Below the pieces are notes generated by a model. That model did not search any database and was not told where the DNA came from. It worked only from the letters and a program-made list of their open reading frames with translations. From NCBI GenBank assembly GCA_001593685.1, contig LUKI01000001.1, positions 1 to 64,000 on the forward strand: DNA of 64,000 nt, given 5' to 3'. Position 1 is the first letter of the stretch. Each line of letters begins with the position of its first letter. This stretch comes from Gammaproteobacteria bacterium F7. GTDB lineage: Bacteria > Pseudomonadota > Gammaproteobacteria > Pseudomonadales > IMCC2047. Position numbers and translations under genes: made by a program. This document shows positions 7,018 through 21,567 of this stretch, one piece after another.

Positions 7018-7552
7018 TTTCCAATTCCTTTAGTTTCTGTTTGTAATGCAGCTCTATCGCTTTGTAGTCCTGAGCTGTGTATCTATTTGCTTCGTGCGGG
7101 CCCTCCAGCCACTCCACCTTTTCCAGCCCTATTTTCTCAATCAAGTTTGGCCGGTAGTTGGCAATATTCCCCGATAGATGGTTGTTGCACGGGGCGCATT
7201 GTTTGTGGCAGTTAAGCTCTTCAAATCTCAGCTCTGGATTAGCGCCTATCGTCTTGAAGTGTCCTGCATGATACTGGCCGTTGTGGTGGCGCTGACAGCT
7301 AATACAGGGCTGCCCCTTGTCTCTTGCTCGGATAAACGCATTAAAGGCCTTCTGCGCCGCTTTAGCCCTGAATGCTTTGTCGTTAGCATAGAAGTCGCGC
7401 TTTTGCTGCTTAATCGCCTTGTCTTTCTTTTTTGCCTGCTTCTTTTGAGCGTAGGTGATAGCGCAAGCCATATTGCAAGCAATCTGGAGCGAGCTTTTCG
7501 GGATAAATTCAAACTTACAGACGCGGCATTTTTTGGGCTTTAGCGGCTTCAC
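6995..7552 (-). CDS. ninG: NinG/Rap recombination protein
   Basis: CISCQRHHNGQYHAGHFKTIGANPELRFEELNCHKQCAPCNNHLSGN, highly characteristic. Confidence 0.9.
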   Translation of the reverse strand: MKPLKPKKCRVCKFEFIPKSSLQIACNMACAITYAQKKQAKKKDKAIKQQKRDFYANDKAFRAKAAQKAFNAFIRARDKGQPCISCQRHHNGQYHAGHFKTIGANPELRFEELNCHKQCAPCNNHLSGNIANYRPNLIEKIGLEKVEWLEGPHEANRYTAQDYKAIELHYKQKLKELESESTRVA

Positions 7553-16725: not shown

Positions 16726-16935
16726 ATGCAGCTAGATATTTTTGAACCAAAGCCGGTGCTTTTAAGAGGATACAATCCTGATCTCGTTTTGCGACATGCG
16801 TTTGGAAGCAAAATAAATGCAAGCAACGCAATGCGCAGATCGGTCAGAATTTACTGGCCGTTTCGAAATAAAAACGATATTGCAAAGTGCCGGCTGAAAT
16901 CAGCGATAAATCTGATCAGGGTGTTTTCGCAATAA
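16726..16935 (+). CDS. small hypothetical protein, first ORF of the cassette-like array
   Basis: 69-aa ORF whose TAA stop lies inside attC-like site 1. Confidence 0.5.
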   Translation: MQLDIFEPKPVLLRGYNPDLVLRHAFGSKINASNAMRRSVRIYWPFRNKNDIAKCRLKSAINLIRVFSQ

Positions 16936-17007
16936 CGCCGTAAACACGCGGGAACGAAGCAGAGCGGAGCGGCGTGTAGTGAATCGCCGTGATTTAAATT
17001 GTTATAC
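16930..17007 (+). repeat. attC-like site 1
   Basis: CAATAACG...ACACGC..GCGTGT...TTGTTATAC, 78 bp. Confidence 0.65.
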
Positions 17008-17038
17008 GCAACCAATTTCACCAAGCGGGAAAAATGGT

Positions 17039-17227
17039 ATGAGTGAAAAGATTGTAAATATTGAAGAGGCCAAACCGCATTTGACGGTAAATTGTGGTGA
17101 AACTATTCATGTAATACCTGTCGCATTAATTGAAGACGTGATAGCAGGGAAGAAAGATTTCACCCAGCTGGACGACTGGGAAACACTTTTGAAAACTATA
17201 TTAAGAGATTGGCTTGATAGCATATAA
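17039..17227 (+). CDS. cassette ORF, hypothetical
   Basis: 62 aa; TAA stop forms part of the next attC-like R'' box. Confidence 0.55.
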   Translation: MSEKIVNIEEAKPHLTVNCGETIHVIPVALIEDVIAGKKDFTQLDDWETLLKTILRDWLDSI

Positions 17228-17291
17228 CGGCCATGTTGTGTTGCACGAAGGAGCAAAGCGGATGAGTGTCAAAACGAACTACTTGTTAGGT
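17222..17291 (+). repeat. attC-like site 2
   Basis: ATATAACGG...GTTGTGTTGCAC..GAGTGTCAAAACGAAC..TTGTTAGGT, 70 bp. Confidence 0.7.
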
Positions 17292-17486
17292 GGCTTCACT
17301 GTTACGGACAGAGATAAGGCTATTTTTGAAAAAGCTGTTCAATACATTAAAGCTACTGACGGACTCGATAGAAGACAGGGCGATTTTTACTCAAGGGAGT
17401 TTTCCACCTGGTGTAAAGAGCGCGGGTTTACTCACAGAGAAATGGTGGATGCGAAGCGGCAAGCTGAACGCTACCTAGACACCTAA
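17262..17486 (+). CDS. cassette ORF, hypothetical
   Basis: MSVKTNYLLGGFTVTDRDKAIFEKAVQYIK..; ATG lies within attC-like site 2. Confidence 0.55.
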   Translation: MSVKTNYLLGGFTVTDRDKAIFEKAVQYIKATDGLDRRQGDFYSREFSTWCKERGFTHREMVDAKRQAERYLDT

Positions 17487-17550
17487 CGTTGAACATAAAG
17501 TGCGAATGGAGCAAAGCGGAATGAAGTCAATTTTGATGTGGTTGTTATGT
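17481..17550 (+). repeat. attC-like site 3
   Basis: ACCTAACG...GAGCAAAGCGGA...GTTGTTATGT, 70 bp; shares core with site 2. Confidence 0.7.
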
Positions 17551-17796
17551 GCAGTTGCTCGCAAATTTGGCTTTGTCCGGATTAGCGAAACACGCCGAGA
17601 GTATGTTTGCGATGAATGCGGTGACAAAAGCATTTACCTAGATGGCTCATACGGAATCGATTACGAGGCGATGGAAGAATATGCAATGCAGAACGGCTGG
17701 GGAGGATCTGCAAAGCATGGAGTGGAAAAATTAACTTGCGGTCACTGCATGGCAAAAAAATTCAGAGAATACGCCGCAAAACAAAGAAGCACATAA
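17521..17796 (+). CDS. cassette ORF, zinc-ribbon protein
   Basis: MKSILMWLLCAVARKFGF..YVCDECGDKS..LTCGHCMAKK; alternative GTG start at 17500, both inside attC-like site 3. Confidence 0.55.
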   Translation: MKSILMWLLCAVARKFGFVRISETRREYVCDECGDKSIYLDGSYGIDYEAMEEYAMQNGWGGSAKHGVEKLTCGHCMAKKFREYAAKQRST

Positions 17797-17860
17797 CGGC
17801 TTGGGTGTGGGGCAAGTGAAGCAACGCGGAACGCAGTCCCGCACGAACCGATTGTTATAG
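17791..17860 (+). repeat. attC-like site 4
   Basis: ACATAACGGCTTGGGTGTGGGG...CCCGCACGAACCGATTGTTATAG, 70 bp, good imperfect hairpin. Confidence 0.78.
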
Positions 17861-17868
17861 GTGGAATT

Positions 17869-18075
17869 ATGAAAACACAGATACCAAAAGCACGTGCGCC
17901 ATTTACGCCAGAGCAAGTGCAGAACATTAACATCAGGCAGGACGACACCAGCTTGCACCCATACACCTGTTCAGGATGCTCTCCATCAAGAGTGCTACAT
18001 GCGAATGAAGCAGGGTTGTTTTGTGCAATGTGTGGCTACCAGCAAGAGTGGGTTCTCGCTGTAGACGCCCTATAA
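17869..18075 (+). CDS. cassette ORF, small zinc-binding protein
   Basis: FTPEQVQNINIRQDDTSLHPYTCSGC...GLFCAMCGYQQEW. Confidence 0.6.
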   Translation: MKTQIPKARAPFTPEQVQNINIRQDDTSLHPYTCSGCSPSRVLHANEAGLFCAMCGYQQEWVLAVDAL

Positions 18076-18202
18076 CGTGAGAGGTAACGGGCGATGAAGT
18101 GCGAATGTAGATTAAGCGAACCTTGCTTCAAAAAAGAAGGCTGCAAATTTGAAGAGCAAAACGACAAGGTGGGGAGTCGTCCCGTTGACCGGGTTGTTAT
18201 TC
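18070..18202 (+). repeat. attC-like site 5 (long, 133 bp)
   Basis: CTATAACG..AACGGGCGA......TCGTCCCGTT..GGTTGTTATTC; inner arms complementary. Confidence 0.55.
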
Positions 18203-18432
18203 GCGCATTCAAAACGGAGTGCACTGGCGTGACAACCATTGTATTTGCGGAAACGGCTGGTCAGGCGAAGTACGACACCATGCGCGCAGCTAACGATGCT
18301 GGGTATCGGGTTAAGTTTACGGACGTGGCCGCTTGCCGCGCCCCTAAATACGATCAGCGCCGCACCATCGACGGGGAGATACCCACTTTACGCATGTGTC
18401 ACTCACCTGAACGACTGGCGCAAAGTGAATAA
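18094..18432 (+). CDS. cassette ORF, hypothetical
   Basis: 112-aa ORF; start inside attC-like site 5, TAA stop in site 6. Confidence 0.45.
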   Translation: MKCECRLSEPCFKKEGCKFEEQNDKVGSRPVDRVVIRAFKTECTGVTTIVFAETAGQAKYDTMRAANDAGYRVKFTDVAACRAPKYDQRRTIDGEIPTLRMCHSPERLAQSE

Positions 18433-18485
18433 CGTTTTAGCTTAACTGCCGCCGTAGGCGGTCGGATTACAGCGCATTGTTATGC
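18427..18485 (+). repeat. attC-like site 6
   Basis: GAATAACGTTTTAGCTTAACTGCCGCC-gta-GGCGGTCGGATTACAGCGCATTGTTATGC, 59 bp, classical short hairpin. Confidence 0.85.
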
Positions 18486-18507
18486 GCTGAACGAACGGGA
18501 GATAAAG

Positions 18508-18744
18508 ATGATTGATAAGGTTGGGGATTTAGACACAAGCTGGATTTTAAAGCACTGCCCGTTTTGTGGATGCGGCGCTCACTGGTGTCGATGCGGATCG
18601 AGCGACAAAGAGCATGAAGGGTGTCACCAGATATCCTGCCCGAACTGTGGAAATTTCGACTTTGCTAACGGTGATGATAAAGACTGCGAGACACTCGAAG
18701 AGCTAAGAGAGCATTGCGCAGCGAAGTGGAATTCTAGGCTCTAG
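18508..18744 (+). CDS. cassette ORF, Lar-like restriction-alleviation/zinc-ribbon protein
   Basis: LKHCPFCGCGAHWCRC...HQISCPNCGNFDF...ETLEELREHCAAKWNSR. Confidence 0.6.
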   Translation: MIDKVGDLDTSWILKHCPFCGCGAHWCRCGSSDKEHEGCHQISCPNCGNFDFANGDDKDCETLEELREHCAAKWNSRL

Positions 18745-18751
18745 ATTTAGC

Positions 18752-18824
18752 GCATAACGCTTTGCTAAGGGGCTGGCGTTTAGCCAGTCCCGTGCGAAGC
18801 ACGAACTTGAGCAATTTGTTAGCA
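18752..18824 (+). repeat. attC-like site 7
   Basis: GCATAACGCTTTGCTAAGGGGCTGGC-gttta-GCCAGTCCCGTGCGAAGCACGAACTTGAGCAATTTGTTAGCA, 73 bp. Confidence 0.82.
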
Positions 18825-18836
18825 GCAGGAGATAGC

Positions 18837-19121
18837 ATGAAAACTGAATTTTCTGGTGAGTGCGATTGGTGCAGAAAAGAAGCAGACGACCTTGTGGAGC
18901 ACAAGGATTTCGAGGAAGGCATGGCAGGCCGACTCTATGACGTTTGCGCCGAGTGCCGGATAAAGGAGCGGGAATCTGTTGAAGCGGAACAGGCCGAAGA
19001 TGACGACTACAACGAGGAACCCTACGGCCCAGAACCAGAGTGCTACCAGGATGCTACTGGCTATTGCTCTATGCAAGGAACCGAACATTGCGACTGGGAC
19101 TGCCCCAACGGGGGCTGCTAA
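18837..19121 (+). CDS. cassette ORF, Cys-rich protein
   Basis: CDWCRKEADD..CAECR...CYQDATGYCSMQGTEHCDWDC; TAA stop in site 8. Confidence 0.55.
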   Translation: MKTEFSGECDWCRKEADDLVEHKDFEEGMAGRLYDVCAECRIKERESVEAEQAEDDDYNEEPYGPEPECYQDATGYCSMQGTEHCDWDCPNGGC

Positions 19122-19189
19122 CGGTAAAAATTAACGGGCGGCGCAGCCGTCCCAGCGAGGAACGAGCGATGTTTAATTGGTTGTTATCT
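19116..19189 (+). repeat. attC-like site 8
   Basis: TGCTAACGGTAAAAATTAACGGGCGGC-gca-GCCGTCCC...TTTAATTGGTTGTTATCT, 74 bp. Confidence 0.8.
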
Positions 19190-19399
19190 GCCTTTGGCTG
19201 GCGAGAGGAGTGGCACGTATGCTGGCGCGCCAGTTTGGACGGAAACAGGACTGCATTTTCTGACGGGACGTACACTTTTAGACCTCGGCTTACAGTTGCG
19301 CATGTGAAAGCACTACGCGAAGAGCTTGCTGCAGCAACTGGATATGGTTGCACTGCCGAGCAAATAAATATAACTAGCATGATAAAGATAGGCAGATAA
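19169..19399 (+). CDS. cassette ORF, hypothetical
   Basis: MFNWLLSAFGWREEWHVCW..; ATG inside attC-like site 8. Confidence 0.5.
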   Translation: MFNWLLSAFGWREEWHVCWRASLDGNRTAFSDGTYTFRPRLTVAHVKALREELAAATGYGCTAEQINITSMIKIGR

Positions 19400-19443
19400 C
19401 AGCGGGATATGGGAACTGTGCACGTTTCTATAGGGAGTTAGCA
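19394..19443 (+). repeat. degenerate attC-like site 9
   Basis: AGATAACAGCGGGATATGGGAACTGTGCACGTTTCTATAGGGAGTTAGCA; TAAC..GTTA outer boxes and TATGGGAAC/GTTTCTATA inner stem with two G-U pairs. Confidence 0.45.
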
Positions 19444-19763
19444 TGAAGTATTACGAGGAAGATTGGCGGCGAATTACAACCGAGCAGGCCAAAGCCATGA
19501 ACGATGCTAAGCGCCGATACATGATGGCTGCCCCGCCACCAGATTATCCAAATGACCTGCCGTACATGCCCTATCAGCTCATTTTGTTGAATTGGGAGTT
19601 CGAGCTATCTGTAACACAAGTTGACTTTATCCGTCCATCGAGAGGCCGTCGCATAGACTCGTTCATGATGGAAATAGACGGAGTTCGTCACGCTAACCCG
19701 ATGGGTCTGGTCAGAGGCTTGCGCTACTTCGCAGAACAAATACCCCGTGTTAGAGCGGTTTAA
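19443..19763 (+). CDS. hypothetical protein, last ORF of the cassette-like array
   Basis: 106-aa ORF beginning at the edge of site 9. Confidence 0.5.
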   Translation: MKYYEEDWRRITTEQAKAMNDAKRRYMMAAPPPDYPNDLPYMPYQLILLNWEFELSVTQVDFIRPSRGRRIDSFMMEIDGVRHANPMGLVRGLRYFAEQIPRVRAV

Positions 19764-19986: not shown

Positions 19987-20201
19987 TGAGCCGATTTATC
20001 ACACAAGAGACAATCGAAGAGCTTACAGGGAGAAAAACCCCTAAAGCTCAAGTCAAAGTATTGCGCGAGCTTGGCTTTACTGTCTTGTGGGTGCAAGGGC
20101 AATCTCCAAAAATCTCGACTGAAAACTTTATTCGCGTTACAGGTGGCGCACCTTTACACCGCCAAAAACAAGAGGTTAAACTGGATTTTAGTCAGCTATG
20201 A
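19986..20201 (+). CDS. DUF4224-family protein
   Basis: FITQETIEELTGRKTPKAQVKVLRELGF, overlapping the integrase start. Confidence 0.75.
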   Translation: MSRFITQETIEELTGRKTPKAQVKVLRELGFTVLWVQGQSPKISTENFIRVTGGAPLHRQKQEVKLDFSQL

Positions 20202-21241
20202 GAAAGCGTAATCCTGAAAACGTGGGCCTCCCATCGCGCTGGCGTTTCACGCGTAATGCGTATTACTACCAAGTTCCGCCAGGCAAGGAGGCTAACTGGG
20301 ACAACAAAAAGACGTTTAAGTTGGGCAAAACATACGCCGAAGCCGCTGCTGTTTGGGCTGAGCGTTTGAGCTGGACTGAATCGTGCAACCTAATGTCACA
20401 GCTTTTTGATCGTTATTCTGTCGAGGTCGTTCCGCATAAAGCAGCGGCAACGCGCCGCAGCAACGGGATAAGCATCAAGAGGCTGAAAGGGGTTTTCAGT
20501 GACTCACCCGCTAAGCTGGTGGAGCCCCAGCATATCTATCAGTACAGAGACGCCTGCACGAAAAAAAATGGCCCTGTATCAGCTAACCGCGACCTGGAAG
20601 TGTTGAGCCACGTTTTCACTAAAGCGATTGAGTGGGGCGTTATCGGGACGCACCCAATGACAGACAAAAAAGTGGTAAAGAACAAATCACAAAAGCGGGA
20701 TCGCTATGTGGAGGACTGGGAGCTAAAAGAGGCCTTAAAGGTCTGCTCTCCATTCCTGACTGCTTACATTAACCTGAAAATGCTTTTAGGCGTCCGCAAA
20801 GGCGATATGCTTAGCATTAAGCTATCGGATATAAAAGATGATGGCCTTCACATTAAGCCGCGCAAGACGGCCAGCACAACCGGCAAAAAGAAAGTCTACC
20901 CGCTAACGCCAGAGTTAGAGAGCGCTATTGCAGAAATAAAATCTCTGCATAAAAAGGTCAAGAGTGTATGGCTATTCCATACTCGCAAAGGCCAGCCGTA
21001 CATAAAAGAAGACGGGCAAGCATCCGGTTTTGATTCGGTATGGCGGCGTATGATGAATAAGGCATTAAAAGAAACAAAGCTATCAGAGCGGTTCACCGAG
21101 CACGATTTACGCGCCAAAGTTGCCAGCGATACAGACGCGCAACACGCCAGAGATTTGCTAGACCACTCTACCGACACAATGACCGATAAGTACCGAAGAA
21201 AAGCGAGGGTTGTTGAGCCTGCTAAGTGGAAAGCGAAGTGA
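20198..21241 (+). CDS. int: phage tyrosine integrase
   Basis: 347 aa; catalytic-region motifs LLGVRKGDMLSIKL, FTEHDLRAKVASD, LLDHSTDTMTDKYRR. Confidence 0.92.
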   Translation: MRKRNPENVGLPSRWRFTRNAYYYQVPPGKEANWDNKKTFKLGKTYAEAAAVWAERLSWTESCNLMSQLFDRYSVEVVPHKAAATRRSNGISIKRLKGVFSDSPAKLVEPQHIYQYRDACTKKNGPVSANRDLEVLSHVFTKAIEWGVIGTHPMTDKKVVKNKSQKRDRYVEDWELKEALKVCSPFLTAYINLKMLLGVRKGDMLSIKLSDIKDDGLHIKPRKTASTTGKKKVYPLTPELESAIAEIKSLHKKVKSVWLFHTRKGQPYIKEDGQASGFDSVWRRMMNKALKETKLSERFTEHDLRAKVASDTDAQHARDLLDHSTDTMTDKYRRKARVVEPAKWKAK

Positions 21242-21491: not shown

Positions 21492-21567
21492 TGGTGGGCC
21501 GTGCTGGATTCGAACCAGCGACCAATTGGTTAAAAGCCAACTGCTCTACCAACTGAGCTAACGGCCC
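21492..21567 (-). tRNA. tRNA-Lys(TTT)
   Basis: GGGCCGTTAGCTCAGTTGGTAGAGCAGTTGGCTTTTAACCAATTGGTCGCTGGTTCGAATCCAGCACGGCCCACCA on minus strand. Confidence 0.95.

Follow-up and report, generated by a model that had tools for sequence, protein, structure and literature searches.

How does a row of small genes, each beside a repeat resembling an integron recombination site, come to stand in a phage, and between which genomes do such genes pass? The question is raised by the first 64,000 nucleotides of contig LUKI01000001.1 of Gammaproteobacteria bacterium F7 (order Pseudomonadales; GenBank assembly GCA_001593685.1), and "the window" below means this whole stretch. The window holds a prophage, and the array within it is a run of eight genuine integron-type cassettes. 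The original prediction, made from the letters and their open reading frames (ORFs), was that a temperate phage carries a cluster of attC sites lacking an integrase (CALIN), and that description is supported. We read the region, with a probability of about three in four, as a phage-resident CALIN of a distinctive type, inverted in polarity, on which an integron integrase (IntI) acts in trans.

attC sites and cassette boundaries

To search for attC sites, we trained a covariance model, R1, on 27 chromosomal-integron attC sites at other loci, taken as bottom strands. The training sites came from arrays at IntI-bearing loci, both in the host and in further genomes of its order, and nothing from the window was included. 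Run on the array alone with filters off, R1 matched eight of eight sites at exactly the starts that had been predicted (16930 to 19116), with E values from 8e-11 to 0.064. Over 86 kb with default filters, it recovered seven of the eight up to E = 1, with site 5 missing the threshold, and gave no window matches at that level besides the array sites. Of the 12 base pairs in the model, each site keeps between 9 and 12, and the R''/R' and L''/L' pairs are present with their AACAA/CGTT asymmetry. A ninth attC, predicted at 19394, was rejected. It is an R'-type half box that matches the start of cassette 8 and drew no R1 match in the array scan, and we presume it to be an attG- or attI-like insertion point. 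Extensions of the array to 16346 or 19697 were also rejected, as they rest on single loose R-box matches with no R1 match. The R-box-like match at 19437-19697 (GTTAGCAT/GCTAAC, with one mismatch) covers the greater part of the gene that follows the array and holds no attC; it is probably due to chance, and possibly a decayed cassette. A scan of Rfam, which has no attC family, gave no relevant match.

The boundaries of the units rest on a property of cassettes: the first bases of a cassette (TTRRRY) and its own inverse core (RYYYAAC) derive from one circle, so they should match each other and not those of the neighbor. In the array, boxes of the same cassette pair at 47 of 56 positions, compared with a permuted mean of 31, a value reached in 3 of 200,000 permutations, while boxes of the same site pair at only 29 of 56. 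The chain of matches between own start and own end has a length of 8 (10 with two loose end links); elsewhere in the window the longest such chain is 2, and none of 200 first-order Markov shuffles gave one longer than 4. These figures come from a tightened test, since a looser one that permitted long cassettes had a null of up to 9. A scan that paired R'' with R' within one site called many false sites and recovered just one of the eight; the within-cassette rule is the correct one. Each unit is thus bounded by R' and has a start and an end from one circle, and the own-cassette pairing means that the array is real and was assembled by cassette-type recombination.

With at least two neighboring attC sites and no adjacent intI, the array is a CALIN. 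A complete integron would have intI and attI beside it, and no intI is present in the window, where the IntI profile TIGR02249 found nothing above its cut-off. In the host genome, this profile exceeds the cut-off on contig C3 alone, in an intact IntI (G000:C3:47666-48610) that stands with a chromosomal array. The attC sites there are of the TAACAA...GCGTTA type and differ in type from those of the prophage.

Polarity of the cassette genes

The top strand of the attC sites is the minus strand of the window, which is the noncoding strand. R1, a bottom-strand model, matched the host chromosomal integron on the strand opposite its genes and the prophage array on the gene strand. The same result is obtained without a model: all eight sites carry the AACAA/CGTT signature, which marks top strands in chromosomal integrons, on the minus strand of the window. 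It follows that the crossover lies in the left end of each element, at TAA|C as read on the plus strand, and that a unit consists of an attC followed by a gene. This reverses the predicted assignment of R'' and R', which put the crossover at TTG|TTA, and it redraws the predicted cassette geometry, in which polarity had been overlooked: the cassette is the attC plus the ORF downstream. A classic cassette has its gene upstream of the attC on the top strand; here, the genes are on the bottom strand, downstream of the attC. The inverted polarity explains why c2, c3, and c8 start within their own attC, why seven of the eight cassette stops are the TAA of the R' core, and why the last site is only half a site, the insertion point. 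The prediction that the TAA of the first box is the stop of the upstream ORF in eight of nine cases was borne out, with c6 as the exception.

How unusual is this arrangement? Chromosomal integrons of the same order, including that on host contig C3, have attC sites good enough to train R1 and the same own-cassette R-box pairing. They differ in having intI, in a longer spacing per cassette, and in their polarity, which is classic in 88 of 100 cassettes scored at 16 loci. In the window, seven of eight cassettes score as inverted, a result with a probability of about 7e-6 under the chromosomal rate. Among arrays of at least three cassettes, all 13 chromosomal ones are classic, compared with 10 inverted and 8 classic viral arrays. 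The viral sample was assembled with a polarity-neutral attC pattern, relatives of c1 and c6, and published phages. Of 59 inverted viral cassettes, 38 end with the R'-core TAA as their stop codon, and the median spacing per cassette is 364 bp in inverted arrays versus 535 bp in classic ones. Scoring by longest ORF leaves c8 of the window ambiguous, as a longer minus-strand ORF overlaps it, along with one cassette of Pseudoalteromonas phage H101/PH101 (NC_029094). The annotated PH101 genes are all consistent with inversion.

Several ORFs of inverted cassettes remain open back through the attC (L120 6271-6843, L097 967-1587, L098 4185-4820, and window 18094-18228), so that predicted N termini such as SPLERLVM would be encoded by the attC itself. 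The last of these belongs to c5, whose frame is open back to 18094, within attC5; the long variable part of that site is open in the c5 frame.

Cassettes in common between phages

Two prophages (G298 and G133), from other families within the order, also have inverted arrays, as do PH101 and about ten IMG/VR contigs, G759 and G394 among them. Several of these contigs have phage structural or replication genes in the flanks, and IntI was found in none of the 18 viral contigs searched. In G298 and G133, the arrays adjoin an integrase-like gene, named by eye from the ORF list. Relatives of c1 are found in the arrays of G759 (IMGVR_UViG_3300038701_002017; 75% identical) and G394 (IMGVR_UViG_3300005611_000108; 73%), and the latter also has a relative of c6 (53%). 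Outside the array, the window phage has only Erf (27%) and one small ORF in common with G759 and nothing in common with G394. Thus, cassettes are held in common by phages with little or no common backbone. G759 and G394, which have some DNA in common elsewhere, keep the c1 unit with its upstream attC and not with the downstream one. Two further viral loci (L098 and L106) have 651 bp in common at 94.5% identity, comprising an attC and a Mom-like gene and running from R' to R' in L098.

Other searches returned less. The array DNA had no match in isolated phages and plasmids. A profile of c1 found nothing in the species-genome collection or in 368 other genomes of the class, and the relative of c1 in PS-1 (30%) lies in a late region with no visible attC. 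The phage integrase and SSB, used as queries, found no viral contig, and neither did our first attC DNA pattern. Two details of the viral arrays may be recorded. In the G759 array, one cassette (L064, ~7300-7430) seems to hold a partial tRNA-like sequence (GGTTCGATTCCCGCA) before the next attC. One 52.8-kb viral contig (IMGVR_UViG_3300027852_000046; L133 and L135) has attC clusters at two separate places.

CALINs in phage genomes were already known, and phage cassettes had been proposed to help against restriction (Qi et al. 2023, PMC9892861). The closest parallel is PH101, which likewise has attC arrays without IntI, carries anti-restriction cargo (methyltransferases), and has its annotated genes on the attC bottom strand. 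In published assays, IntI1 recombined the PH101 attC sites (PMC9892861). The window differs in being a lambdoid prophage with eight cassettes. In the same paper, the arrangement in PH101 is called typical, and neither inverted polarity, nor R'-core stops, nor cassettes held in common by phages are described. We found no description of these three features in the open literature, the range of our search, which did not take in subscription papers and preprints; an inverted phage-to-phage cassette pool thus appears to be undescribed so far. Treponema integrons also have an atypical polarity (PMC3607928); there, intI is the inverted element, as judged against the cassette genes, whereas the window lacks intI and has its cassette genes inverted against attC.

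Proposed origin and exchange of the array

How might such an array arise and persist? We propose that each unit moves as an attC plus the single small gene downstream, encoded on the attC bottom strand, with the start codon of some units within their own attC and the stop usually supplied by the R'-core TAA. Integron integrases of the bacteria that the phage infects or lysogenizes would excise and insert these units in trans, recombining attC bottom strands in their folded form. The founding event was probably the insertion of a cassette, oriented against phage transcription, into a GTT site of the phage resembling attG or attI; before insertion, the empty site would read ...GTGTTTTCGCAATAA|CAGCGGGATATGGG.... 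Cassettes enter genomes at attG sites according to Loot et al. 2024, as cited in PMC12901181, and the G|TT box that stands by itself at the right end of the array is what insertion at a non-attC site should leave; against this likeness, no empty site was found for the array. The use of the bottom strand fixes cassette orientation (PMC8946536). Once the reaction had fixed the orientation of the attC, only cassettes with an inverted gene would be read from the early operon of the phage and hence be kept. The outcome would be a selected pool of small genes specific to phages, with anti-restriction genes among them.

It is tempting to go further. The inverted genes, which recur in several other phages, suggest that phages keep and trade a cassette set of their own, anti-restriction genes included. 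A fuller version, which in our judgment could go either way, is that this polarity-inverted pool is closed, in functional terms, to the integrons of bacteria, since there its genes would lie antisense to Pc, and that phages swap anti-restriction and other early genes within it through borrowed host IntI, with the attC providing some start codons and the R' core the stops. In that case, scattered reports of attC sites in phages would come together as one recognizable system, distinct in architecture, in cargo, and in its network of exchange. Bacterial IntI, usually viewed as a tool of the cell, would be used by phages to reassort counter-defense genes. There is also a practical warning for annotation: in inverted arrays, the attC belongs to the downstream gene, not the upstream one.

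Several observations weigh against our reading. Recombination in trans by host IntI is a step that we infer, and the IntI of G298 and G133 is only split or partial. The attC1 site is 92% identical to an attC of the G298 prophage (L149), with different genes on both sides; conversely, two viral loci (L130 and L136) share a gene (99%) and not the attC. From such comparisons, attC bodies and genes appear to reassort separately, with breaks at R' and R''. Standard integron recombination takes place at R' only, and breaks at R'' are not explained by a single R' crossover. No close prophage relative was found that shows presence or absence of a cassette. In addition, polarity was scored by longest ORF, a rough method, and 8 of the 18 viral arrays with at least three cassettes are classic. 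Several of these have long attC sites resembling those of the Vibrio phage p16, and the classic arrays with long sites are probably captured chromosomal arrays.

The separate movement of attC bodies and genes lends itself to a different explanation, in which the present role of the attC sites is mostly to give phage annealing proteins (Erf, RecT, and others) short stretches of homology, so that homologous recombination exchanges the units and IntI has a minor part today. The window prophage encodes Erf and Gam, the phages are without IntI, and nearly identical attC bodies adjoin different genes in several phages, with breaks at R'' and R'. We nevertheless consider this explanation unlikely: covariation and asymmetry of the attC sites are maintained, the matching R' tails within cassettes are the signature of circular intermediates, and the breaks fall at R boxes and are not spread through the attC bodies. 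That the elements are instead RNA-level hairpins of a phage operon, regulatory or translational, or chance repeats, and unrelated to integrons, is hardly credible. Some start codons and the GGAG motif do lie within the elements, and attC7 is a strong hairpin. Yet a model of chromosomal attC sites matches the elements specifically, and own-cassette R-box pairing would be meaningless for an RNA element. Bottom-strand folding, proposed in advance as a check, gave a strong minimum-energy fold at attC7 (+ strand, z -3.7) and mild ones at sites 5 and 6; the folds of sites 1-4 and 8 are unremarkable, so that most are no better than shuffles, which counts against hairpins and must also be set against our own reading.

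Could the array simply be a piece of an ordinary bacterial integron captured by a phage, with no phage-specific design? Such captures exist. The temperate Vibrio phage Va_90-11-286_p16 (MK672802), like the window, has integron cassettes; it differs in being a captured piece of a chromosomal integron, with mostly classic polarity and with IntI present (PMC9892861). The host of the window prophage also has its own chromosomal integron. Even so, the inversion of seven of the eight cassettes, the different type of the host attC sites, and the relatives in other phages make capture very improbable, and no cassette protein is common to the prophage array and the sampled chromosomal integrons, that of the host included. 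The inversion, the relatives in other phages, and the lack of a common cassette protein, together with the membership of several cassette genes in phage families, leave the predicted role of the phage in moving ordinary bacterial cassettes between hosts a poor fit. Cassette-type recombination in a polarity-inverted phage array remains our preferred explanation.

Cargo and prophage setting

Four of the cassettes (c1, c3, c5, and c7) match phage families without an assigned function, and c6 resembles the restriction alleviation protein Lar (Table 1). The cargo of other inverted arrays includes a Mom-like modification gene (phrog_1384) and a DNA methyltransferase (phrog_359). Judged by these similarities, some cassettes of the phage pool (Lar, Mom-like, and methyltransferase) are putative anti-restriction genes.

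Table 1. Features of the array and its flanks in window coordinates; for attC sites and the half-site, the strand is that of the attC top strand, and scores are from the R1 scan of the array
Feature	Position	Strand	Remarks
Whole array	16936..19399		eight cassettes, 2464 bp, contiguous
Crossover points (TAA|C)	16935/36, 17227/28, 17486/87, 17796/97, 18075/76, 18432/33, 18757/58, 19121/22, 19399/400	+	
Unit starts	16936, 17228, 17487, 17797, 18076, 18433, 18758, 19122		last unit ends 19399
Left flanking phage gene	16726..16935	+	TAA stop is R' half box
attC1	16930..17007	-	28.8 bits, E 1.5e-6
c1	17039..17227	+	phrog_30574 family
attC2	17222..17291	-	15.2 bits, E 0.0053; 9/12 pairs
c2	17262..17486	+	no assignment; start codon within own attC2, GGAG upstream
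attC3	17481..17550	-	27.5 bits, E 3.2e-6
c3	17521..17796	+	phrog_17873 (E 2e-4); start within own attC3
attC4	17791..17860	-	22.3 bits, E 7.1e-5
c4	17869..18075	+	weak zinc-ribbon similarity, under Pfam cut-off
attC5	18070..18202	-	11.0 bits, E 0.064
c5	18229..18432	+	GTG start 18229; phrog_9207 (E 1e-4)
attC6	18427..18485	-	21.2 bits, E 1.5e-4
c6, Lar-like restriction alleviation protein	18508..18744	+	PF14354, 30.1 bits (cut-off 28.6)
attC7	18752..18824	-	45.1 bits, E 8.3e-11; most canonical site
c7	18837..19121	+	phrog_15864 (E 5e-14)
attC8	19116..19189	-	18.9 bits, E 5.6e-4
c8	19169..19399	+	no assignment; start within own attC8; polarity uncertain
Right boundary half-site	19394..19443	-	predicted ninth element; ...CCCGCTG|TTATCT...
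Phage tyrosine integrase, not IntI	20198..21241	+	PF00589; adjoins array
tRNA-Lys	21492-21567		prophage attachment end

The prophage is lambdoid, with a CI-type repressor, NinB, NinG, Erf, Gam, and SSB; its left part is missing, cut by the contig start. The recombination genes lie on one side of the array and the phage integrase on the other. In other parts of the host genome, further attC clusters stand on contigs C8 and C14 (L075 and L077), and these may be parts of the same integron as that on C3.

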